This document shows positions 20,422 through 38,637 of a stretch of 64,000 nt of DNA, piece after piece; the first letter of the stretch is position 1; each line of letters starts with the position of its first letter. Source of the stretch: Chitinophaga pinensis (GTDB lineage: Bacteria; Bacteroidota; Bacteroidia; UBA4408). Below the pieces are notes generated by a model. The model was not told the DNA's origin. It worked only from the letters and a program-made list of their open reading frames with translations, and made no database searches. The DNA is taken from positions 62,001 to 126,000 of the forward strand of contig CAMAVS010000005.1 of the NCBI GenBank assembly GCA_945861665.1, read 5' to 3'. A program made the position numbers and the translations under genes.

Positions 20422-22515
20422 TTATCTAACCACTGTTACGTGTCCAACATAGCTATGTTGTTTGGAATACAAATCAGTTGCTGATATTTTATATACGTAA
20501 ACGTCCTGACCTACCAATTGCCCACTGGGGCCGCGTCCATCCCAACCTGCTTTTCCAAAATCTGTTTGCTCGTATAATTTATTGCCCCAACGGTCGAATA
20601 TCAACATCTCAAAAGATGTTAAACTTTTTAAATTAACTCCCTTCGGCATAAAGTATTCGTTTTGTCCATCACCATTTGGGCTAAATGAACTAGGAATATA
20701 CAATGCATAAGCACCGTTTATGTGTAAACATTTTACTGTGGTATCAATACAACCGCTGTTATATTGAACAATTAAGGTTACACAATACTGGCCGCTATCA
20801 GTATAAGTATGTGTTGGGTGCTGTTGAGTTGAAGTGCTGTCTGCCGATGAGTTATCGCCAAAATTCCAAACCCAATTTATGGCATTCGTTGATTTGTCTG
20901 TAAAAAAAATTTTAGGATCTAATATTGTTGTTGGCTGCGGGCCTAATATAAAATCGGCTTTTGGGGCAGGATATGTATTTATATAAGCAACCATCATTAA
21001 CGAATCCTTACAACCATTAGATGTGGTTACTACCAACTTAACATTAAAAGATCCAACCCAACCGTATAAATGTGTTGGATTTTGAATAGTTGATGTTGTG
21101 CTATCCCCAAAATCCCAAAACCATTGTGTTATTGTACCACCCGCTACCGTTGATAAATCAGAAAAATTTATCGATACCGGTGCACAGCCATTTATTGTAT
21201 CACTTGTAAAAGATACAACGGGGTTTGGATAAACATTTATCAGTAAACAACTATCCGGACCTGATCCACAAGAATTGTCAGCATGAACACAAATATTTCC
21301 TCCGGTATTTCCAAAACCAACTGTAATTGTTGTTGTTCCCTGTCCGCTTGCTATAAAGACTCCGGCAGGAACTACCCAAACATAATTTGTTGCATTAGGT
21401 ATGGCATTAATAGTATATGTTTGACTACTGTTTGCACACACATTAAGCGGACCATTTAACGCTGGTTTAGATGGCAATGGCATAGTTGTAAATGACCAAA
21501 CGGGACAACCAGCAGCCGGTCCAGCATTTGACAAAGGTGAAACTTGCCAATAATAAGTTGTTCCGGGCAACAATGCTCCAGTATTATAGGTTAGGTTAAA
21601 GCCTTGGTTTGCGCCATTTAAAATATTTGTTGGTGGATTATCCGTGCCAAAATATAAACTATATCCAACCGGAGGACAGGTAAGGGAATCCCAATCAAGT
21701 GTTACACCCGAACAAGGTTGGTCGATAGATAAATCAGGAATCGAATTATAAGTTGTGCATCCTACAGGAACCCCAGGTCCCGCTACACAAGGGTGCATAT
21801 AATCGAATATCGCCTCACTCAAGTACTCTGAGGCAGGTTGGGGTTGGTGAAAACCCCAAAAAGTAATTCCTGAAAACAAAACCAATCCTGCCCCATAATT
21901 ATATTCAACTAAAGCAAATTGATTTCCTTGAGCTTGTGGAGCTTCAATTAAGTTTAAACCACATGGGGTATTTACAATATTGTGTGTAAAATAATTTCCT
22001 GTCCAATTATTACCGGATGGGAAAAGTGCATTATTAAAAATAGGATGTGCATTTTGTCCGAAAGCAATTTGACCAGTTCCCGATGCAAAGTTATAGGATG
22101 GTTGCAATTGAATCACAACTCCACCAAATCCACAATTAATATCATTATTCCAGCCTGCAGATTCAATCATTAAATGTCCGCCCGCAAGAACCCAATTTTG
22201 TATAGCAACTTGATTAGCTGCAATAAAATTATCAAGAGGTGTGTCATTTTGTGCCCCACCTTCCATCAGAATAAAACAATTAGTATTTGAGAAAATGGCT
22301 CCAATATTTGCATTTTGGAAATAGGCAGTAGAATATCCCCCATTACCAAAAACAGCATTCAATGACATAAAATTATCTTGACCACCATTTATATTATATG
22401 TCCATGGTTCTTGATTTTGGTCGGTAATGTATACAATGCCTTGCTGTGCATTTGTATTATTTGCAACCACTGAATAAATCAAAACAAATAATAAAATTCG
22501 AAGAGTTCTAGCCAT
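20422..22515 (-). CDS. Large secreted PKD protein with type B T9SS sorting domain
   Basis: Extracellular or cell-surface protein of 697 residues, exported by Sec and then by the type IX system. After the signal peptide (cut after NNTNAQ) comes a domain of about 215 residues beginning QQGIVYITDQNQEPW and ending AIFDYMHPC. Its pattern (FSNTNCFILMEGG, WVLAGGHLMIESAGWNNDIN, LVLFSGITFWGF) resembles a glutamine-amidotransferase-like Rossmann fold, as in DUF4350-type domains, but I cannot name it. Then a fibronectin-like segment (YYWQVSPLSN), an Ig-like segment, two PKD domains (WFWDFGDSTTSTIQNPTHLY; WVWNFGDNSSADSTSTQQHP) and the CHU_C tail (LYIPSSFSPNGDGQNEYFMP, FDRWGNKLYE). The N-terminal domain is shared with the next gene, 24 bp upstream on the same strand. 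Confidence 0.85.
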   Translation of the reverse strand: MARTLRILLFVLIYSVVANNTNAQQGIVYITDQNQEPWTYNINGGQDNFMSLNAVFGNGGYSTAYFQNANIGAIFSNTNCFILMEGGAQNDTPLDNFIAANQVAIQNWVLAGGHLMIESAGWNNDINCGFGGVVIQLQPSYNFASGTGQIAFGQNAHPIFNNALFPSGNNWTGNYFTHNIVNTPCGLNLIEAPQAQGNQFALVEYNYGAGLVLFSGITFWGFHQPQPASEYLSEAIFDYMHPCVAGPGVPVGCTTYNSIPDLSIDQPCSGVTLDWDSLTCPPVGYSLYFGTDNPPTNILNGANQGFNLTYNTGALLPGTTYYWQVSPLSNAGPAAGCPVWSFTTMPLPSKPALNGPLNVCANSSQTYTINAIPNATNYVWVVPAGVFIASGQGTTTITVGFGNTGGNICVHADNSCGSGPDSCLLINVYPNPVVSFTSDTINGCAPVSINFSDLSTVAGGTITQWFWDFGDSTTSTIQNPTHLYGWVGSFNVKLVVTTSNGCKDSLMMVAYINTYPAPKADFILGPQPTTILDPKIFFTDKSTNAINWVWNFGDNSSADSTSTQQHPTHTYTDSGQYCVTLIVQYNSGCIDTTVKCLHINGAYALYIPSSFSPNGDGQNEYFMPKGVNLKSLTSFEMLIFDRWGNKLYEQTDFGKAGWDGRGPSGQLVGQDVYVYKISATDLYSKQHSYVGHVTVVR

Positions 22516-22539
22516 TTTGCATTAAAAATCTATCTTCAA

Positions 22540-25500
22540 TTATCTCACTAATGTAACATCACCTGTGAACGAATGTTTTTTATCTGTTAAGTCTACTGCG
22601 CTTATCTTATACACATATACATCTTGTAATGCTATTTCACTGCCACCTTTGATGGTTCCACTCCAACCTGTACCGTTAAAGTTCGTGGTCTTGAATATCA
22701 TATTACCCCATCTGTCAAAAATAAGCATCTCAAAGCCATCACTCTTTATGCCTTTCCCTTTTGGCATAAAATAGTCGTTCATTAAATCTCCATTGGGAGT
22801 AAAAGCATTCGGAATAAACAAGGTAAAAGCATCATTAACTATCAAACAATTGATGGTTGTATCTACACAGTTATTAGGGCTGGTTACCATTAAAGTTACA
22901 CAATACCTTCCCGTATCACCATACTCGTGAATAGGATTTTGTAACTCCGAAGTACTGTCTTTGGAGAAGTCACCAAAATTCCAATGCCATTTTACTGCAT
23001 TTGCTGATTTGTCTCCAAAAACTATATTCGGACTCAATATATCGGTTGGTTGCGGGCCATAAGCAAACTGAGCTATCGGATAAGCATAAGAGCTTATCAT
23101 AGTTGTTATGGTTTTTGTTGTACTGCAACCTATGTTATCTGTTACCGTTAATGTTACATCGTATACCCCTGGAGTAAAGCAATGGTTTGGGTTTTTTTGG
23201 CTGGATGTGTTGCCATCTCCAAAATTCCACAACCAAGCACTTATATTACTACCTGCGGCTGCTGTGCTTTGGTCTGCAAAAATTACACAGACGGGTGTAC
23301 AGCCTGTGGCTATATCGCTGGTAAAGTTTACGGTTGCGGGTTGAATTACCTTTACCGTTACACTATCCATTTGCGAAGGGGTACCACATCCGTCATTTAC
23401 TGTACAATAGTAAGTAGTGGTTACTTGTGGTTGTACATTCGGATTCGGGAAACCACCCCCGGCTGGTAACCAACTGTATATTAAATTTCCACTTCCACCA
23501 CTCGCTAAAGCGCGTAAATTAGCGGTTGTACCTAAACATATCGTTGTATCGTTTGAACAAACCACTGTAATGGATAAGCTTACTGATACCGTTAAGGTTT
23601 GTGAAGCTGAAATGCATCCATTAGCATCGGTTGCGACTACCGTATACACTGTTGTTACTAAAGGTGAAACTACTTGGTTAGCTCCTGGTAAATTACCCGG
23701 ATTCCACATATAAGTGTAAGCCGCTGTGCCTCCTTGCGCTAAGGCGGTTATATTTGCATTTTGACCTATACATATACTCACGTTTGCACTTGGAGTTACG
23801 GTTACAGCTGTAGGTTCAGTAACAACAACTATAGCTGTGGTTGTACAGCCATTGACATCCGTAATGGTTACCGTGTAGTTACCTGCCGCTAAATTGGTGG
23901 CTGTTTGTGTTAATTGTACAGGATTACTATTCCAACTATAGCCGTATGGTGCAGTGCCTCCTGTTACGAAAGTTACCGTTGCGCTGCCATCTATTCCACC
24001 ATTACACAATGTTGGTATTGAATCGGTTACTACAACAAAGGCTGCCGGTTGAAGTATCGTTACATTTATGGTATTATTACATCCAATTGCATCGCTTACG
24101 GTTACGGTATAGGTTCCTGCCGGTAAGTTTGTGGCTGTTTGTGTTAGTTGTACTGGATTACTATTCCAACTATATGTGAATGGCGCTATACCTCCGCTGG
24201 TAATATTCACTGTTGCAGTTCCATTTGTGCCACTTGGGCAGACTAAATCTACTTGAATAGTATTTAATACTATCGGCTGAGATACTGTTACTGTTACAGA
24301 GTCGTTACCGGTACAACCGTTTGAATCTCCTATTACATAATATTTTGTGGTTACTGCGGGTGTGGCTATTACGTTAGCCCCTACTGTGGTATTTAATCCC
24401 GTTGCAGGTGACCAAATATAGGTAGCTGCTCCGCTTGCTGTTAAAGTGGCTTGTCCGCCAAAGCATATCGTTGTGTCGTTGCTCAGACCGATTACTAAAT
24501 TCGGGCTCAATATTACAGCTATACAACAAGGTGGACTTGCTCCACAAAGGTTACTTATTGTTACGCATATATTACCTGGAGTATTTCCTGTAGTTACAGT
24601 AATATTGTCTGTGCCTTGACCTGCATTAATCACCCAACCTGCAGGCACTGTCCAATTGTAAGTTACGCCCACCATATTGAGACAAGAATAGCTTAATATT
24701 ATATTCGGGCAAAATGTGATTGACCCATTTATTGGACAGGGCTGCACAGGCAGTAGCGATACTACTAAAGGAATACAGACTTGAGGACTCGTGCCACAGG
24801 CATCCGATGCGGTTACACATAAATTACCGGAGGTTGGACCTACTGTTAAGGTTATACTATTTGTTCCTTGACCATTGGCAATCGTACTACCAGGTGGAGC
24901 CGTCCACGTATATAACACTCCTGGCACATTCGGTACACTGTATACTTCAGAAGCATTTTGACAGACATTCAAATTTCCAGATATTGGACCAGGTATTGCA
25001 GGGGTACCTTGTAAGGTATAACTCCACACTGTTGGGCAAATCAAGGTTGTATCACTTCCATTTACACCTCCGCCATAACCTATCAATTCTATTTTCCAAT
25101 AATAGGTTTGGCCAGGGGTAAAGACTAAAGGGGGATTGGTTAATACATAAAAACTAACATTCCCAACATCCAATTGATTGAAAATATTGGTTGGTGGGTT
25201 ATTGGTACCATAAGACAACAAAAAATGTATACTGTCTGCTCCGCAACCTGCTCCACCACCATTCCAACTCAACAATACAGGACCAAGACAATTAGGCTCA
25301 ATAGAACCATTGGGTGGTGCTATTTGGGTTGGACAAGATACGGGTTGACCTATGCAAGGGGTCATATAGTCATATATCGCCATTAATAAATTATCAGCAT
25401 CAGGTTGAGGATTGTGCCAGCTTGTAGAAGTCATACCTCCAAATAACACTATACCACAACCATCTTGTAATTCGGTTAAACCAATTTGGTTACCTTGAGC

Positions 25501-26061
25501 ACCAGTACAAGTTATTAAATTTGTTCCGCTTGGACCATTGATAACATCGTGTGAAAAATAGTTACCAGTCCAAGCAGCGCCTGAAGGATATATTCCATTA
25601 TTAAATATTGCATGTCCACCTTGCCCTGCTGTAACAGCACCAGGTGCTGAAGCATATATATAAGCAGGATTAAGAGTAATGGAAACTCCTCCAAATCCAC
25701 AATTAATATCACTGTTCCAACCTGCCGAATTTAAAAACAAATGGCCACCGTTTTGCACCCAAGTTTGCATAAGGGCTTGATTGGCAGTCGTAAAATTATT
25801 CATTGGAGTGTCATTGTTTTGACCACCTTCGACATAAACAAAACAATTTGCGTTTGAAAATATGGCTTGCGCATTCGCATTTTGATAGTAAGCTGTAGTC
25901 CATCCACCGCCGCCATAAACAGCATTAAATGCATTAATTTGCGATTGAGAACCCCAGGGTTCTCCATTTTGATCGGTTACATAAACTATGCCCTGTTGAG
26001 CATTGCTATTGAAGCTGAACAAACAAACTAGCGCGATTGTGATTAGAATACTTTTTTTCAT
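22540..26061 (-). CDS. Giant secreted protein: shared N-domain, Ig/SprB/PKD repeats, type B T9SS tail
   Basis: A 1173-residue paralogue of the downstream gene. A signal peptide (MKKSILITIALVCLFSFNSN) precedes the same domain of about 215 residues (QQGIVYVTDQNGEPWGSQSQ ... IYDYMTPC). Next come a fibronectin-like unit (YYWKIELIGYGG), two Ig-like 'C...Y.WTxPxG' units (about 355-520), an Ig-like unit (DTTICFGGQATLTASGAATY), two SprB repeats (TYSWNSNP blocks ending AGTYTVTVSDAIGCNNTINV), further Ig-like units, two PKD domains (WLWNFGDGNTSSQKNPNHCF; WHWNFGDFSKDSTSELQNPI) and the CHU_C tail (LFIPNAFTPNGDLMNDYFMP, FDRWGNMIFK). It resembles SprB-type gliding adhesins in repeat content. The two genes likely form one transcript and arose by duplication, followed by insertion or loss of repeat modules. 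Confidence 0.87.
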   Translation of the reverse strand: MKKSILITIALVCLFSFNSNAQQGIVYVTDQNGEPWGSQSQINAFNAVYGGGGWTTAYYQNANAQAIFSNANCFVYVEGGQNNDTPMNNFTTANQALMQTWVQNGGHLFLNSAGWNSDINCGFGGVSITLNPAYIYASAPGAVTAGQGGHAIFNNGIYPSGAAWTGNYFSHDVINGPSGTNLITCTGAQGNQIGLTELQDGCGIVLFGGMTSTSWHNPQPDADNLLMAIYDYMTPCIGQPVSCPTQIAPPNGSIEPNCLGPVLLSWNGGGAGCGADSIHFLLSYGTNNPPTNIFNQLDVGNVSFYVLTNPPLVFTPGQTYYWKIELIGYGGGVNGSDTTLICPTVWSYTLQGTPAIPGPISGNLNVCQNASEVYSVPNVPGVLYTWTAPPGSTIANGQGTNSITLTVGPTSGNLCVTASDACGTSPQVCIPLVVSLLPVQPCPINGSITFCPNIILSYSCLNMVGVTYNWTVPAGWVINAGQGTDNITVTTGNTPGNICVTISNLCGASPPCCIAVILSPNLVIGLSNDTTICFGGQATLTASGAATYIWSPATGLNTTVGANVIATPAVTTKYYVIGDSNGCTGNDSVTVTVSQPIVLNTIQVDLVCPSGTNGTATVNITSGGIAPFTYSWNSNPVQLTQTATNLPAGTYTVTVSDAIGCNNTINVTILQPAAFVVVTDSIPTLCNGGIDGSATVTFVTGGTAPYGYSWNSNPVQLTQTATNLAAGNYTVTITDVNGCTTTAIVVVTEPTAVTVTPSANVSICIGQNANITALAQGGTAAYTYMWNPGNLPGANQVVSPLVTTVYTVVATDANGCISASQTLTVSVSLSITVVCSNDTTICLGTTANLRALASGGSGNLIYSWLPAGGGFPNPNVQPQVTTTYYCTVNDGCGTPSQMDSVTVKVIQPATVNFTSDIATGCTPVCVIFADQSTAAAGSNISAWLWNFGDGNTSSQKNPNHCFTPGVYDVTLTVTDNIGCSTTKTITTMISSYAYPIAQFAYGPQPTDILSPNIVFGDKSANAVKWHWNFGDFSKDSTSELQNPIHEYGDTGRYCVTLMVTSPNNCVDTTINCLIVNDAFTLFIPNAFTPNGDLMNDYFMPKGKGIKSDGFEMLIFDRWGNMIFKTTNFNGTGWSGTIKGGSEIALQDVYVYKISAVDLTDKKHSFTGDVTLVR

Positions 26062-26233: not shown

Positions 26234-29200
26234 ATGTTGTTAAAAGTTCATTGTTCTTACTTATTACTTTTTTTATGCACTTTTCAAGCTACCCCCTTTA
26301 GTTTTGCACAGAGGAATGATGTATTAAAAAAACGTTCCGCAGAATATTTACAAAGCACATCTTCAGGGTTTGTTGAAAACAATGGACAAATAGTAGATGA
26401 CAATGGGGTTCAAATGAACTCTGTATTTTTCAAATCTTCAATTCCTGAAGGTGATTTATACATTACCAGCAAAGGGTTAACATATGCTTTCTACAAAATC
26501 GAAGATGAGGATAAAAAAGTAAAAGAGAAAATAAATGATGAGAAGATTAATATTCGCCAATACAGAATGGATGTCGACTTAAAAGAAGCAAGTATAAAAA
26601 AGGAAAACATTGTTGCTGAAAACAAAGAAAGTTGTACTTATAATTTTTTCTATGAACATTGTCCCAATGGGATAATGCGTGTAAATCAGTACAAAAAAAT
26701 CACTATAAAAAATGTTTATCCAAATATTGATTGGGTTTGGAAAATTGAATCGGACAACCAATTGAAATACGATTTCATACTACATCCAGGTGCTGATATT
26801 GCATCCATTAAACTGCTATATAAGGGTGCTGATTTAACGCTAAAAAATAATGATAAAATAATTCAAGTATCAACCCCAATTTATGAATTTAAAGAAGGCA
26901 ATTTACTTTGTTATGATGAAAAATCAACTCTTATTTCACGCTTTAAAATAACAAAAAATGAAGTTAGTTTTGATATCCCTAATATTGATATAAATGCAAC
27001 AACAACGATTGACCCTCCCCTCATTTGGTGCAGTACTTATTGTGGGTCGGGTTATACTGGAATTAAGGCAACAGAGTGCGATGCAAGTGGTAATTTATTT
27101 GTAACAGGGTATACCAATTCACCAAACTTTCCAACACAAAATGCAGGAGTCTTTTTTCAAGGAAACTTGGTTATGTTTTTTGATGTGTTTATAATAAAAT
27201 TTGATGCGCTTGGAAATAGGAAATGGGCAACCTATTACGGTGCTAGTGATGACGATGTAGGAAACGATATAAAGCTAGATATAAATGGAAATATTTTTGT
27301 TACCGGCTCCAGCAAAACTACAAATGGATTTCCAGTTCAAAACCCAGGAGGTGGAGCATATTATCAACCTGCAAATGGAGGTGCGCCTGCTCAAGATGCC
27401 TTTATGCTAAAATTTGATAATAATGGAAATCGTATTTGGGCAACCTATTTTGGAGGAAGCGATATGGAAGTTGGCGATTATTTGTACATCGACAATAATG
27501 GCGATGTTTTTATGACTGGCATTACTGTATCAACCAATTTACCAACAAAAAATGCGAATGGTTTTTTTCAAGGTTCAAGCGGTGGTTTTGCGGATGTAAT
27601 GCTTACAAAATTTAGCAACAATGGTGTTTTACTTTGGGCAAGTTATTATGGGGGCTCTGGATTTGATGAGGGATATAGTATAACAGGTGATGCAAATGGA
27701 AACGTTTTTTTTGCTGGAGTAACAAAATCTGCTAATTTCCCAACTCAAAACAACGGCAATTATTTTGATGGAACCTTTAACGGAATAAGTGATTTGTTTG
27801 TTTTAAAATTCGACAATACTTTTACTCGTAAATGGGCAAGCTATTTGGGGGGATCCAGTGAAGAAGAATTAGCTCATATTATTATGACGAGCAACAACGA
27901 ATTATTTTTTGTTGGCAATACAGCATCAATTGATTTTGTAACAGCAAACAATCCCTTCCCGGGTTCGTATAACGATGCTTCATTCAATGGAATTACCGAT
28001 GTTGTTCTGATGAAATTTAACAACAATGGAGTACTGCTTTGGTCAACTTTTTATGGTTCGCCCGGTGGCGATTTAAACACTCCCTATGATTACGATAGAA
28101 TTGCGAAAGATGGATGTGGAAATGTATATTTCACTTGTACCACTCGCTCAGCGGGAATGCCTATAAAAGTTTCTGCAAACAACGATTATCTTTTGGGAAC
28201 TTACAAAGGTGGCAACGATCTTTTTATATCAAAATTTTCAGAAAATGGAATCCATAAGTGGGGCACTTATTTTGGTCATATTTACGAAGACTTAAGGGGT
28301 AGCCTTGCAATTGATGACAGCGGTGCAGTTTATGTTGGCGCAGAGTTTGCTAATTATCCCAACGCAGCAAATTTGCCTCTGCTAGACCAAGGAAACGGTG
28401 CCTACTTTCAGAATGTAGTGTCGGGTACCGACAATGGATTTATTGCAAAATTCGAGTATGGCCCTTTGATGTTTTCGGGAAACATTATCCCTGCTTGTAC
28501 TTGCGATGGAGCAGCAACAGCTATTCCTACCGGTGGGTTGCCACCTTACACTTTTTCATGGAATACAATTCCGATTCAAACTAATGCAACTGCAACGAAT
28601 CTTTGTGCTGGCAATTATACCGTAACAGTTAGTGATGCAAATTGCCATAGCAAATCTTTTACTGTTACAGTTACATCTAATGGTCCCGATGCAACATTGG
28701 GAAACATTGTTCCTGTTAATTGCAAAGGGGAAAGTAATGGATCGACTACAATAAACATTAATGGAGGTGTTGCCCCCTTGACTTATATTTGGTATCCCAA
28801 TATTGGAAATACCCCTAGCGTAAGTGGATTACCGGCAGGAACATATTATTTTGTAGTTACAGATGCAAACGGATGCTTTGATTCTATTCCGGTCTCAATT
28901 CTTGAGCCAAACGATTCCTTATCTGCTATTAGTAGCGTGTTAAATATTTCTTGTGGAAGTGGAGAGGCAACAGTTCTTGGAGTTGGTGGTACACCTCCCT
29001 ATTCCTACTTGTGGTTGCCTTCGGGGGGCAATGGATCAATTGCAACAGGATTAAATATTGGAACATATACTTGTACAATAACTGATGCGCATAATTGTAC
29101 ATTTATTGAAACCGTTACTATTACTGTGCCTCCTGCCCCTATCGCTAACTTCACAGCAAACCCTTCAACAGGACAAAAGCCATTACTGGTTAACTTTCTA

Positions 29201-29653
29201 AACAGTAGTATAAATGGAAATTCTTATCTATGGGATTTTGGTGACGGGAATACTTCCAACTTAGAAAATACATCAAATACCTTTTTAAATAATGGAACTT
29301 ATGAGGTACGACTTATTGTTACAAATACTGGCGGCTGCTCTGATACCATTACTGCTACAATAATTGTGGAGGGAGACATTACACTTATCATTCCCAATAT
29401 ATTTACTCCCAATGGGGATGGGGTAAATGATTTATTTCTTATAAAATCAAGTTTAATAAAAGAATTCAATTTGCAAATCTTTAATCGTTGGGGAGATATA
29501 ATAGCTGACATTAACGATGTTTTACAAGCTTGGGATGGAAAAAATAAATCAGGAAGTATTGTTGTAGATGGCACGTATTACTACGTAATAAAAGCAATTG
29601 GGCTAGATGATTTGGATTACAGTACAAAAGGATTTATTACGGTTGAAAAATAA
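26234..29653 (+). CDS. Giant secreted SBBP-propeller/SprB/PKD protein with type B T9SS tail
   Basis: Surface or secreted protein of 1139 residues. A signal peptide ends near FSFAQ (residues 22-26). The domain at about 45-250 (GFVENNGQIVDDNG, GLTYAFYKIEDED, YDFILHPGADIASIKLLYKG) is the DUF7948-type head that regularly precedes SBBP repeats. About seven SBBP beta-propeller repeats follow (255-730; WATYYGASDDDVGNDIKLDI, WASYYGGSGFDEGYSITGDA), then three SprB repeats (750-960; GGLPPYTFSWNTIP, GGVAPLTYIWYPN, GGTPPYSYLWLPSG), one PKD domain (YLWDFGDGNTSNLENTSNTF) and the CHU_C tail (LIIPNIFTPNGDGVNDLFLI, FNRWGDIIADI). It diverges from the 22540-26061 gene with 172 bp between. Ligand unknown. Confidence 0.88.
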   Translation: MLLKVHCSYLLLFLCTFQATPFSFAQRNDVLKKRSAEYLQSTSSGFVENNGQIVDDNGVQMNSVFFKSSIPEGDLYITSKGLTYAFYKIEDEDKKVKEKINDEKINIRQYRMDVDLKEASIKKENIVAENKESCTYNFFYEHCPNGIMRVNQYKKITIKNVYPNIDWVWKIESDNQLKYDFILHPGADIASIKLLYKGADLTLKNNDKIIQVSTPIYEFKEGNLLCYDEKSTLISRFKITKNEVSFDIPNIDINATTTIDPPLIWCSTYCGSGYTGIKATECDASGNLFVTGYTNSPNFPTQNAGVFFQGNLVMFFDVFIIKFDALGNRKWATYYGASDDDVGNDIKLDINGNIFVTGSSKTTNGFPVQNPGGGAYYQPANGGAPAQDAFMLKFDNNGNRIWATYFGGSDMEVGDYLYIDNNGDVFMTGITVSTNLPTKNANGFFQGSSGGFADVMLTKFSNNGVLLWASYYGGSGFDEGYSITGDANGNVFFAGVTKSANFPTQNNGNYFDGTFNGISDLFVLKFDNTFTRKWASYLGGSSEEELAHIIMTSNNELFFVGNTASIDFVTANNPFPGSYNDASFNGITDVVLMKFNNNGVLLWSTFYGSPGGDLNTPYDYDRIAKDGCGNVYFTCTTRSAGMPIKVSANNDYLLGTYKGGNDLFISKFSENGIHKWGTYFGHIYEDLRGSLAIDDSGAVYVGAEFANYPNAANLPLLDQGNGAYFQNVVSGTDNGFIAKFEYGPLMFSGNIIPACTCDGAATAIPTGGLPPYTFSWNTIPIQTNATATNLCAGNYTVTVSDANCHSKSFTVTVTSNGPDATLGNIVPVNCKGESNGSTTININGGVAPLTYIWYPNIGNTPSVSGLPAGTYYFVVTDANGCFDSIPVSILEPNDSLSAISSVLNISCGSGEATVLGVGGTPPYSYLWLPSGGNGSIATGLNIGTYTCTITDAHNCTFIETVTITVPPAPIANFTANPSTGQKPLLVNFLNSSINGNSYLWDFGDGNTSNLENTSNTFLNNGTYEVRLIVTNTGGCSDTITATIIVEGDITLIIPNIFTPNGDGVNDLFLIKSSLIKEFNLQIFNRWGDIIADINDVLQAWDGKNKSGSIVVDGTYYYVIKAIGLDDLDYSTKGFITVEK

Positions 29654-35403: not shown

Positions 35404-38400
35404 TTACCTAATAAGAGTAACGTGACCAATAAATTCACTTTTTTGAGTGCTTGTAACATTGTCTTTATTATTGTATGTTACTTTTATTTTATATACATAA
35501 ACATCTTGTTGCGATATGTCTGTGTCATTATTTCCGGTTCCATCCCATCCTTTATTCAAGTCATTAGACCTGAATATTAAATCTCCCCAACGATTAAATA
35601 TTGTCATATCGAAAGATAAAATAAATTGTCCCTTAGGCATAAAAACATCATTTGTTCCATCACCGTTTGGTGTAAAAGCATTCGGAATAAATAAAGTGTA
35701 CTCCGGACCAACTATCAAACAATGGGTAATATCATTTGTACAACCCTCTATTGAAATGGCCGTTAATTTTACACAGTATAATCCGGTATCACTGTATGCA
35801 TGTCGAGGGTTAATATCTGTAGAATTATTAGCATCATTTTTATCACCAAAATCCCATATATAACTTGCTCCACCAACAGACTTGTTAAAGAAGCTTATAA
35901 CAGGATTTAAAACGGTAGTTGTTGTTGGCGTAAAACCAAATTCAGCAACTGGGTTGGAATAAACAGTAATCATTGCAGTAGTCATTGCAGATGACAGGCA
36001 ACCTAAATTTGAAATAGTACCTAGTGTTACAGAATACACCCCCGGTGAAGCGTAGCAGTGAGAAGGATTTCGTTGAGAACTTAGTGCTGTTCCATCACCA
36101 AAATTCCAAGTCCAACCTACTATGGTTCCAGTAGCAATCGAAGAAGCATCCGTAAAATCAACGCATAAAGGCTCACAGCCATTTGCAATATTAGTACTCA
36201 TTGCAACAATAGTTAAAGGATTAACAGTTATTAAAACAGAATCAACCACTACAGGGGTTCCGCAATTATCACTTGCTGTAACATAATATGTTGTGGTGGT
36301 GGTGGGAGTAACATTTATTGATTGGAAATTGCTTGAACCATTTGGCGCCCAAGTCCAACTATATGCATAAGGACCACCATTACCACCCGTTGCAACAGCA
36401 TTAATAGTTGCAGTAAATCCAGGGCAAACAGAATCGTCTTTTGAAGCGATAACTGAAAGTGCAGGGTATACAGTAATTGTAACATTTTGAGGAGCAGAAA
36501 CACAATTATTTGCATCTGTTACAGTTACTGTATATACAGTAGTTAAAATGGGAGAAACAATTGGGCCTAATGGAGTCCAATTATATGTGTATGGCGGTGT
36601 TCCTCCGGCACCATTTGCGGTTAAAGTAACAGATTGACCTATACAAATTGTCGTTCCGATTTGTGGCGTTACTGTAAGTAGAGATGGTTCACTAATATTG
36701 ACAGTTGTGGTAGAAGTACATCCAACTAAATCCGTAACCAAAATTGAATAATTGCCGGCACATAAATTAGTAAGTGTTGCTGTATTTCCTACGTTAGGTA
36801 TCCAAGTATACGTAAATGGAGCTGTTCCACCTACATTATCAATTGTAGCTTGTCCATCGCAACTACCAAAGCAAGTTGCATTTATAGATGATTGCACAGA
36901 GGCTATCACTCCTGGATTAAATCCAACTACGATGGTTGCATTAACAGCACAATTATTTGCATCTGTAACGGTAACGGTATGATTACCTGCAACAAGATTT
37001 GTAGCTGTTTGTGTGGTTTGTCCACTAGGTTGCCAAATAAAAGTATATCCCGGGGTTCCACCTGTAATGTTTGTTACAGAGGCAGTTCCATCTGGTAAAC
37101 CGCAGTTTGAATTTACAGATGTGGTTTGAATTGCCAAAACAGGCGGCTCAGTAATTATAAAATTTGAAGATATGGTACACCCAACTATATCGGTTACTGT
37201 ACAAGAATAAACCCCGGCACAAACGTTCGAGATAGCTGGATTTGTAGAACCATTGCTCCACAAGTACGAATAGGGCAAAAGGCCACCATTGACAACCACA
37301 CTAGCCTGACCAATACAAACTGCATTACATAATAAGTTTGTTTGTGATGTTTGTATTGTTAATAGCGTTGGTTCAGAAACAGCAACTATTTGAGTAACAA
37401 AACATCCATTTGCATCTGTTACAATACAGGTATAATTACCGGCTGACAAATTATTAACAGTAGCAGTATTGCCAACATTCGGATTCCATAAATAAGTATA
37501 TGGTGCAGTTCCGCCAGTAACATTGGATACAGTAATCGATCCATCATTTGCTCCATAACAAGAAACATCTATAATTATTGAATTAGCAGTCATAGCAGGA
37601 GGTTCCGTAATTGTAATACTAGAAGTAGCAGTACAACCATGAGTATCCATAATATTGCAGACATATGTACCTGCAGTCATTCCGGTTTGTGTTGGCATAG
37701 GACTTCCATTATACACCCATGTGAAGATATAGCCTGGAGAGCCTCCTACAGCAGTAGCTGTAGCACCTGCAGTGTCACCATTACATAAAATAGTACTTGT
37801 TTGTGAAATACTACAAGTTAATAAAGGCGGTTCTGTAATAATAATTGTATCACAACTACCTTGGTTATTAACATCTGTACAAATTACCGAATAGGTTCCA
37901 GGACAAAGGTTTGACTGAGCCGCGGTTGTTGGCCCATTGCTCCATTGGTATGTAAATGGAGGTGTTCCTGCATTTGGAGTAGCCAAAACAGTCCCGTCAC
38001 ACATTCCAAAACAAGTTACATCTGTTCCTGAAACTGTTACACCAGCAGGAATAATTGGCTGAATATTATCGACCAATAATGTATGATATCCATTACAACC
38101 TGGAATGTAATAAGGGCTAATGGTTATGTAGCACCAGTTACCTGTTGCCGTAAATGAAACACTATACGTTTGCCAAACGTTACCATTTATTACCCCTGAT
38201 TGCCATAAAACTTGCTGATTACCACACAAAGAATTCCCTCCTTTAATCTCACAACTTGCAAAACAACCATTTGTATAACCGGGATAATCTCCTGCAGCAA
38301 GATCAAATGTTAATATATAAGTTGTTCCTGCAACCATACAACCACTCAATTGTTGAGTAACTCCTTCATTATATCCAGCATTGCAGAGCATACCTTCATA

Positions 38401-38637
38401 ATGTAATCCGTTTGATGCCGGAAGCAAACATCCCCAATTGCCTGGTTGTTCATCAGGACTACCATAACAAGCTCCCCAAGGTGGAGGAGCGATGTGGGGT
38501 TGTGGTTGCCCACCATTTAACTCAAAACTTGGATTCGAAATTAGAAGTTGAACACCTCCACCTTGCCCTACACCACACTGTGCAAATATATTTAACGATA
38601 GAAAAGATAAGGCTATGATTGATAATGTTTTTTTCAT
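35404..38637 (-). CDS. Giant secreted SprB-repeat protein with type B T9SS tail
   Basis: Adhesin-like protein of 1077 residues. The signal peptide ends near NIFAQ (residue 19). The N-terminal domain (about 20-195: LLISNPSFELNGGQPQPHIA, TYILTFDLAAGDYPGY, YHTLLVDNIQPI) looks like a carbohydrate-binding jelly roll. About six SprB repeats follow (DVTCFGMCDGTVLATPNAGT, GGTAPYTYLWNPNVGNTATV, each ending AGxYxxxVTDxxGC), then two Ig-like units, two PKD domains (GWTWNFGDGTALSSQRNPSH; YIWDFGDKNDANNSTDINPR) and the CHU_C tail (LFIPNAFTPNGDGTNDVFMP, FNRWGDLIFRS). SprB of Flavobacterium johnsoniae is a mobile gliding adhesin with the same repeat type; this protein is far shorter. It is a single gene with its own terminator. 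Confidence 0.88.
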   Translation of the reverse strand: MKKTLSIIALSFLSLNIFAQCGVGQGGGVQLLISNPSFELNGGQPQPHIAPPPWGACYGSPDEQPGNWGCLLPASNGLHYEGMLCNAGYNEGVTQQLSGCMVAGTTYILTFDLAAGDYPGYTNGCFASCEIKGGNSLCGNQQVLWQSGVINGNVWQTYSVSFTATGNWCYITISPYYIPGCNGYHTLLVDNIQPIIPAGVTVSGTDVTCFGMCDGTVLATPNAGTPPFTYQWSNGPTTAAQSNLCPGTYSVICTDVNNQGSCDTIIITEPPLLTCSISQTSTILCNGDTAGATATAVGGSPGYIFTWVYNGSPMPTQTGMTAGTYVCNIMDTHGCTATSSITITEPPAMTANSIIIDVSCYGANDGSITVSNVTGGTAPYTYLWNPNVGNTATVNNLSAGNYTCIVTDANGCFVTQIVAVSEPTLLTIQTSQTNLLCNAVCIGQASVVVNGGLLPYSYLWSNGSTNPAISNVCAGVYSCTVTDIVGCTISSNFIITEPPVLAIQTTSVNSNCGLPDGTASVTNITGGTPGYTFIWQPSGQTTQTATNLVAGNHTVTVTDANNCAVNATIVVGFNPGVIASVQSSINATCFGSCDGQATIDNVGGTAPFTYTWIPNVGNTATLTNLCAGNYSILVTDLVGCTSTTTVNISEPSLLTVTPQIGTTICIGQSVTLTANGAGGTPPYTYNWTPLGPIVSPILTTVYTVTVTDANNCVSAPQNVTITVYPALSVIASKDDSVCPGFTATINAVATGGNGGPYAYSWTWAPNGSSNFQSINVTPTTTTTYYVTASDNCGTPVVVDSVLITVNPLTIVAMSTNIANGCEPLCVDFTDASSIATGTIVGWTWNFGDGTALSSQRNPSHCYASPGVYSVTLGTISNLGCLSSAMTTAMITVYSNPVAEFGFTPTTTTVLNPVISFFNKSVGGASYIWDFGDKNDANNSTDINPRHAYSDTGLYCVKLTAISIEGCTNDITHCLIVGPEYTLFIPNAFTPNGDGTNDVFMPKGQFILSFDMTIFNRWGDLIFRSNDLNKGWDGTGNNDTDISQQDVYVYKIKVTYNNKDNVTSTQKSEFIGHVTLIR

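Follow-up and report, generated by a model that had tools for sequence, protein, structure and literature searches.

Tandem T9SS cargo genes with a common N-terminal domain

The window, which is the whole 64,000-nucleotide stretch of DNA analyzed here, contains between positions 20422 and 26061 two tandem genes on the reverse strand, both encoding T9SS type B cargo. Gene B (22540–26061, 1173 aa) is the first of the pair and is followed 24 bp downstream by gene A (20422–22515, 697 aa), in agreement with the original prediction. The two proteins share the domain order signal peptide, head, Fn3-like stretch, PKD_6, two PKD_4, and type B T9SS tail, and the best BLASTP segment between them has an E-value of 6e-119. 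Signal peptides were identified by eye as residues 1–21 of B (25999–26061), with cleavage before Gln, and residues 1–23 of A (22447–22515). The common domain, here called the head, follows directly and comprises residues 22–238 of B (25348–25998) and residues 24–245 of A (21781–22446). The heads, 217–222 residues long, are 58% identical (57.6% over 217 aligned residues), the highest value of all segments compared, and every sequence motif previously quoted for the head was found in both proteins. In all six head proteins of the source genome, read by eye, the head starts at or beside a Gln after the presumed cleavage site, as the Q-rule described for the Bacteroidetes signal peptidase predicts (PMC5837995).

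Downstream of the head lies a stretch of putative Fn3-like fold without a Pfam match (residues 239–350 of B, 25012–25347; residues 246–347 of A, 21475–21780; 41.7% identity), followed by PKD_6 assigned by Pfam (residues 354–427 of B, the best of two stretches, 24781–25002; residues 352–422 of A, 21250–21462; 45.5%). The last PKD pair and the tail are 51.7% identical. The tails carry the CHU_C type B sorting domain (residues 1082–1167 of B, 22561–22818; residues 607–689 of A, 20449–20697), which scored above the cut-offs of both Pfam (51.0 and 51.2 bits, cut-off 27) and NCBIfam (TIGR04131, 48.2 and 44.9 bits, cut-off 35). Outside the head, the proteins had been expected to differ by added modules. 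This applies to a stretch of B that A lacks (approximately residues 432–902; 23356–24768) with three SprB repeats and probably a second PKD_6, which are included in the 476-residue length surplus of B; elsewhere the likeness spans head, Fn3-like stretch, PKD_6, both further PKD domains, and tail. The T9SS translocon protein SprA is encoded in the genome (SprA_N, E 2e-161), as are seven PorP_SprF proteins, none of them inside the 64-kb window. Just upstream of gene B, a divergent gene (26234–29653) encodes another T9SS cargo protein with DUF7948, SBBP propeller repeats, SprB, PKD, and CHU_C.

Database searches with heads A and B gave no Pfam match at E-values up to 1 and none in NCBIfam, all rows falling in the stalks. 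Among the 19 heads of alignment A3, none matched a Pfam family above cut-off; DUF4350 (PF14258) was matched by two at a best E-value of 0.02, below the cut-off of 30.4 bits, seven further families all appeared at 0.036 or worse, and ThuA (PF06283, cut-off 33.4 bits) was absent from the Pfam families at E-values up to 1. The same heads gave only chance-level rows in NCBIfam and PHROGs (best E-values 0.15 and 0.077, respectively). No title on such a domain was found among the matches listed for the open-access literature. The head, which had been described as unrecognised, thus has no counterpart above cut-off in Pfam, NCBIfam, or PHROGs, including any well-studied family, and represents a family new to the libraries searched.

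Distribution, stalks and sorting devices

The collected set consists of 25 heads from 14 genomes, apparently of two phyla. The source genome and its class are assigned to Bacteroidota on the strength of the T9SS. Weak matches (E above 1e-20), duplicates from the source genome, and L033 (the same protein as L027) were excluded from the head sets; L028, which shares 92% identity with L020, was omitted from the 19 rows of A3 and kept in the sets of 23 and 25 heads. Six of the heads belong to the source genome: two in the window, three in a row on contig 8, and one on contig 1, where the genes of the last contig 8 head and of the contig 1 head run off the contig ends. The last 145 bases of contig 8 (the end of L007) are identical to a region inside the contig 1 head gene (L008), and heads L007 and L008 are only 76% identical despite this; either the stalks have been exchanged recently or the assembly was interrupted at a repeat.

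The head domain is rare and patchy in the genome samples examined, as seen from the low match counts in the family, class, and phylum samples. None of seven genomes of the same family had a head match, and two of a sample of 60 did, one being the source and the other a weak match (L010, E 3.7e-4). In the class sample, 12 of 395 genomes matched at E ≤ 0.01, eight of them strongly (the source, G141, G169, G193, G291, G297, G316, and G344), and in the phylum sample 8 of 395 matched at E ≤ 0.001, with strong matches in the source, G667, and G682. Two scans of genome contigs were also made, the first without a relative and the second yielding a single locus, L035, from a Methylococcaceae MAG; matches were present in 2 of 274 genomes of its class and 3 of 398 of its phylum, the MAG being counted each time. 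Phage or plasmid cargo was considered and rejected, as one head used as query gave no match at E 1e-5 among 50,697 records from phages and 72,556 from plasmids. Three IMG/VR scans revealed no relative, and the head profile found no head among 32 loci from two pattern scans, two of which showed a 24-position match (E 0.0019) accounted for by the scan pattern itself. Two weak head-profile matches, L023 and L024 (E 0.005 and 0.007), look like chance.

A tree of 23 heads places the six source heads and L035 in one clade (99/98), with the six source heads inside at 88/66. Copies from the same genome also cluster in G193 (four, 99/99), G291 (three, 100/99), and G297 (two, 91/88), a pattern usual for surface receptors. 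The contig of L035 also bears genes read as MnmG and RsmG, and is for this reason not obviously a Bacteroidota contaminant. A fair reading of the L035 head would be transfer between phyla, though its branch is long (1.39).

To characterize the stalks, Pfam was run on 16 head proteins of the Bacteroidota type, leaving out L052, L059, and C8c, which is cut by a contig end. CHU_C or Por_Secre_tail, that is T9SS type B or A, was above cut-off in 13 of the 16; L050 has a Por_Secre_tail just under it (25.8 bits, cut-off 27), and L060 and the contig 1 protein are cut short by contig ends. Stalk modules found with the head in these 16 proteins were PKD, SprB, HYR, Ig_7, MAM, and SUEL lectin; the SUEL lectin and MAM domains were above cut-off, a galactose-binding-like match below. 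In Pseudomonadota, the head is combined with PEPxxWA-CTERM in L115 (51.9 bits, cut-off 35) and with PEP-CTERM in L048 (29.7 bits) and, below the cut-off of 20.7, L035 (19.2 bits). L116 instead has an autotransporter beta-barrel (146.5 bits, cut-off 26), with about 110 residues between head and barrel. These four proteins are hardly more than a head and a sorting device, and the head is therefore likely to be their working part. No partner enzyme domain was detected in the head proteins scanned.

The proposal of a conserved head on a variable stalk was thus extended to many stalks and to four kinds of surface-sorting device (type A tail, type B tail, PEP-CTERM, and autotransporter barrel). Its placement as the functional tip fits only part of the family. 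With positions read by eye, 14 of the 25 heads directly follow the signal peptide. The other 11 are placed otherwise or lack a clear start: four follow about 60–80 residues (Ig_7 in L051, a stretch without assigned family in the other three), three follow 300 or more residues, two lie deep inside the protein, one is the second of a tandem, and in one (L014) the start is not clear. Two adjoining heads are present in a single protein.

Conserved residues and predicted fold

Residues are numbered according to head A, where the protein residue is n+23. Ten positions are invariant in all 25 heads: Gly34, Gly63, Val86, Gly89, Gly90, Gly106, His155, Gly185, Gly187, and Thr195. Trp15 is present in 24 of the 24 heads with a residue at that position, Asp/Glu62 in 24 of 25, Asn78 in 23 of 25, and position 199 is aromatic or His in 24 of 25. 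L116 deviates at conserved positions by having Gln62, Tyr78, and Asp107. There is no Cys column in more than 10 of 23 heads, and the column we equate with the nucleophile position of GATase enzymes contains Asn in 22, Glu in two, and Ser in one of the 25 heads. A catalytic class I glutamine amidotransferase was consequently rejected, lacking a conserved Cys and with it the Cys-His-Glu triad. The earlier statement that no such catalytic set is apparent is correct for the Cys, and needs the qualification that a His and a Thr are invariant and an acid and a Trp nearly so. The 10 heads (of 23) that contain Cys57 are also those that contain Cys220, which suggests a disulfide between the two (hypergeometric p 9e-7, a value that ignores that six of the heads are paralogues).

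A fold of the glutamine-amidotransferase type had been proposed from the order of strands and the Gly-rich turns, and a GATase1-like fold is the one that we moderately favor from profile comparisons. The phylum sample contained six weak head-profile matches at E ≤ 0.001 from five further genomes, where about 0.4 genomes in 395 would be expected by chance. DUF4350 was matched by two of these, L039 (E 6e-7, 30.3 bits) and L042 (E 1.5e-6, 29.1 bits), slightly short of the cut-off; L039 is a GH88 protein whose end is DUF4350-like. Three others (L040, L043, and L044) share with L022 of the class sample a C-terminal domain for which Pfam gave nothing firm, and which we take to be the C-terminal domain of PIG-L-type deacetylases; the sixth, L041, was assigned no family by Pfam. 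The class sample also yielded L021 (E 7.5e-7), a frame exceeding 2000 aa in which HYDIN/ASH Ig domains alternate with three divergent head-like stretches, of which the first is very weak.

Using hhalign, the heads aligned to the PIG-L-type set with a probability of 93.9% (E 1.6e-7), or 95.7% with A3 and A6, and this set aligned to ThuA with 83.4%. The first step of this two-step chain is biased and partly circular, since the set was chosen by match to the head profile. Directly compared, the heads gave 0.5% with ThuA (reversed-ThuA controls 1.2 and 1.4%), a value at the level of the controls, which ranged from 0.1 to 1.4% in six reversed-profile comparisons and one unrelated set, and 6.8% with a DUF4350 set of 11 sequences; DUF4350 gave 3.0% with the PIG-L-type set. 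ThuA and DUF4350 belong to one Pfam clan and reached just 21.6% against each other, so the set-up has low power. The DUF4350 set comprised 11 of 13 loci, with L102 cut at a guessed offset, and the ThuA set five of eight.

AlphaFold with three sequences produced two low-confidence models (pLDDT 36.5 and 43.7). Their best Foldseek matches, none of them significant, were a ThuA-like structure (4jqs, E 0.98) and a response regulator (E 0.17), and their best Z-scores in VIA-align, within the range the tool warns about, were 4.4 (gephyrin) and 7.1 (azoreductase). By our assignment, 21 of the 50 best rows of the gephyrin-topped model are GATase1-like (GH42, GH164, PdxT, DJ-1, IFT52, ThuA-like, GatD, and others), and only a few among those listed for the azoreductase-topped model, which resembles general flavodoxin-like folds rather than GATase1. 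The head profile gave chance matches only against PDB chains, and for the PIG-L-type profile, IFT20 (E 0.66) and a GH42 galactosidase (E 0.94) were listed. Absence from a fold-search list was given no weight as evidence. The suggested comparison with ThuA and DUF4350 folds thus returned weak DUF4350 profile matches and the indirect chain to ThuA, and neither the direct alignments nor the models lend it strength.

A binding domain with another alpha/beta fold (flavodoxin-like) or a new fold is accordingly a rival that we regard as rather doubtful. It would accommodate the direct values for ThuA and DUF4350 and the model ranking azoreductases, response regulators, and flavodoxins first; the low power of hhalign lessens the force of the former, and five of the six weak matches are of the DUF4350 or PIG-L type. 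The other model aligns with GH42 and GH164 domains within its first 50 rows, all with Z below 5. This would agree with a role in which the head caps the stalk as a structural or oligomerising element, comparable to the GATase1-like domain through which GH42 galactosidases trimerise. Such a role seems quite improbable, as the PEP-CTERM proteins are almost head alone and leave nothing to cap, and a cap needs no invariant polar residues.

Possible function of the head

We propose, with a probability of about one half, that the head serves as a portable domain for binding extracellular ligands, probably a triad-less GATase1/ThuA-like one, with a glycan as the most likely ligand. The head would then be an alpha/beta domain of this type minus the amidotransferase nucleophile, in which the edge of the sheet that formed the old active site, lined by Trp15, Asp/Glu62, His155, Thr195, and the aromatic residue 199, grips the ligand. 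In the source organism, the head would be the first part of the mature protein after export by the T9SS, the type B tail would anchor the protein at the outer membrane, and the PKD, SprB, and Ig modules would serve as a stalk of variable length. PorP-like barrels have been suggested as the anchor of type B cargo (PMC9143113), in which case the head would project from the surface. The SUEL lectin and MAM companions, the clusters of same-genome copies, the tandem heads, and the four sorting devices all argue for binding. That the heads constitute a horizontally shared receptor family, with a rebuilt GATase1-like edge (His/Thr, Trp, and acid) that reads an extracellular polymer from four sorting devices, appears plausible, if somewhat short of an even chance.

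Conservation of this kind, with His and Thr invariant and the acid nearly so, might just as well be the signature of an enzyme. His155 and Thr195 are found in all 25 heads, Asp/Glu62 in 24 of them, and Trp15 in 24 of 24; with the most distant pairs near 25% identity, such invariance is typical of an active site. Among the weak relatives, L039 combines a GH88 hydrolase with a DUF4350-like end (L010 is similar by eye). An exported GATase1-like enzyme whose active site uses His155 and Asp/Glu62 in place of Cys, possibly to hydrolyse a polymer, nevertheless appears unlikely to us: L116 has Gln at position 62, a conserved Cys is absent, the scanned head proteins have no partner enzyme domain, and tandem heads suit binding better.

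The nearest precedent for a binding domain of this kind is CBM87, residues 141–364 of Agd3 from Aspergillus fumigatus, described as GATase1/ThuA-like without the Cys-His-Glu triad and as binding galactosaminogalactan through conserved cleft residues Asp, Trp, and Trp (PMC7229062). CBM87 and the head are alike in extracellular context, in the missing triad, and in conserved aromatics and acid, as far as CBM87 is described there (PMC7229062). CBM87 serves a deacetylase, whereas no enzyme partner accompanies the head in the scanned proteins, and the head profile gave no Agd3 row at E-values up to 10 against PDB chains, assuming that the Agd3 chain is included. DUF4350 shows only the weak likeness given above, and ThuA is joined to the head only via the PIG-L-type C-terminal domain. 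Gliding adhesins of the SprB type and further T9SS type B cargo share the type B tail, SprB, and PKD with genes A and B, but the head is not part of their definition and is also found on type A tails, PEP-CTERM proteins, and an autotransporter barrel.

If the binding reading is true, it would extend the idea of dead GATase1-like domains as polymer binders, for which CBM87 is the one precedent found. To our knowledge, the tips of long Bacteroidota surface proteins are mostly without assignment. The almost bare PEP-CTERM and autotransporter heads offer small proteins for finding the ligand, which would then explain the large T9SS proteins as well.

Two further loci of the window also encode proteins with T9SS-related modules. 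The gene at 35404–38637 encodes a T9SS cargo protein with seven SprB repeats and a DUF642/HpiC1-like N-terminal part below cut-off. Between 50957 and 58293, six Kelch-type ORFs of about 405 aa lie in tandem and represent a duplicated triplet: the pairs one/four, two/five, and three/six are 44–46% identical, and all other pairs 28–33%. The first of these, which was the one scanned, contains NanM-like Kelch repeats and a Por_Secre_tail.
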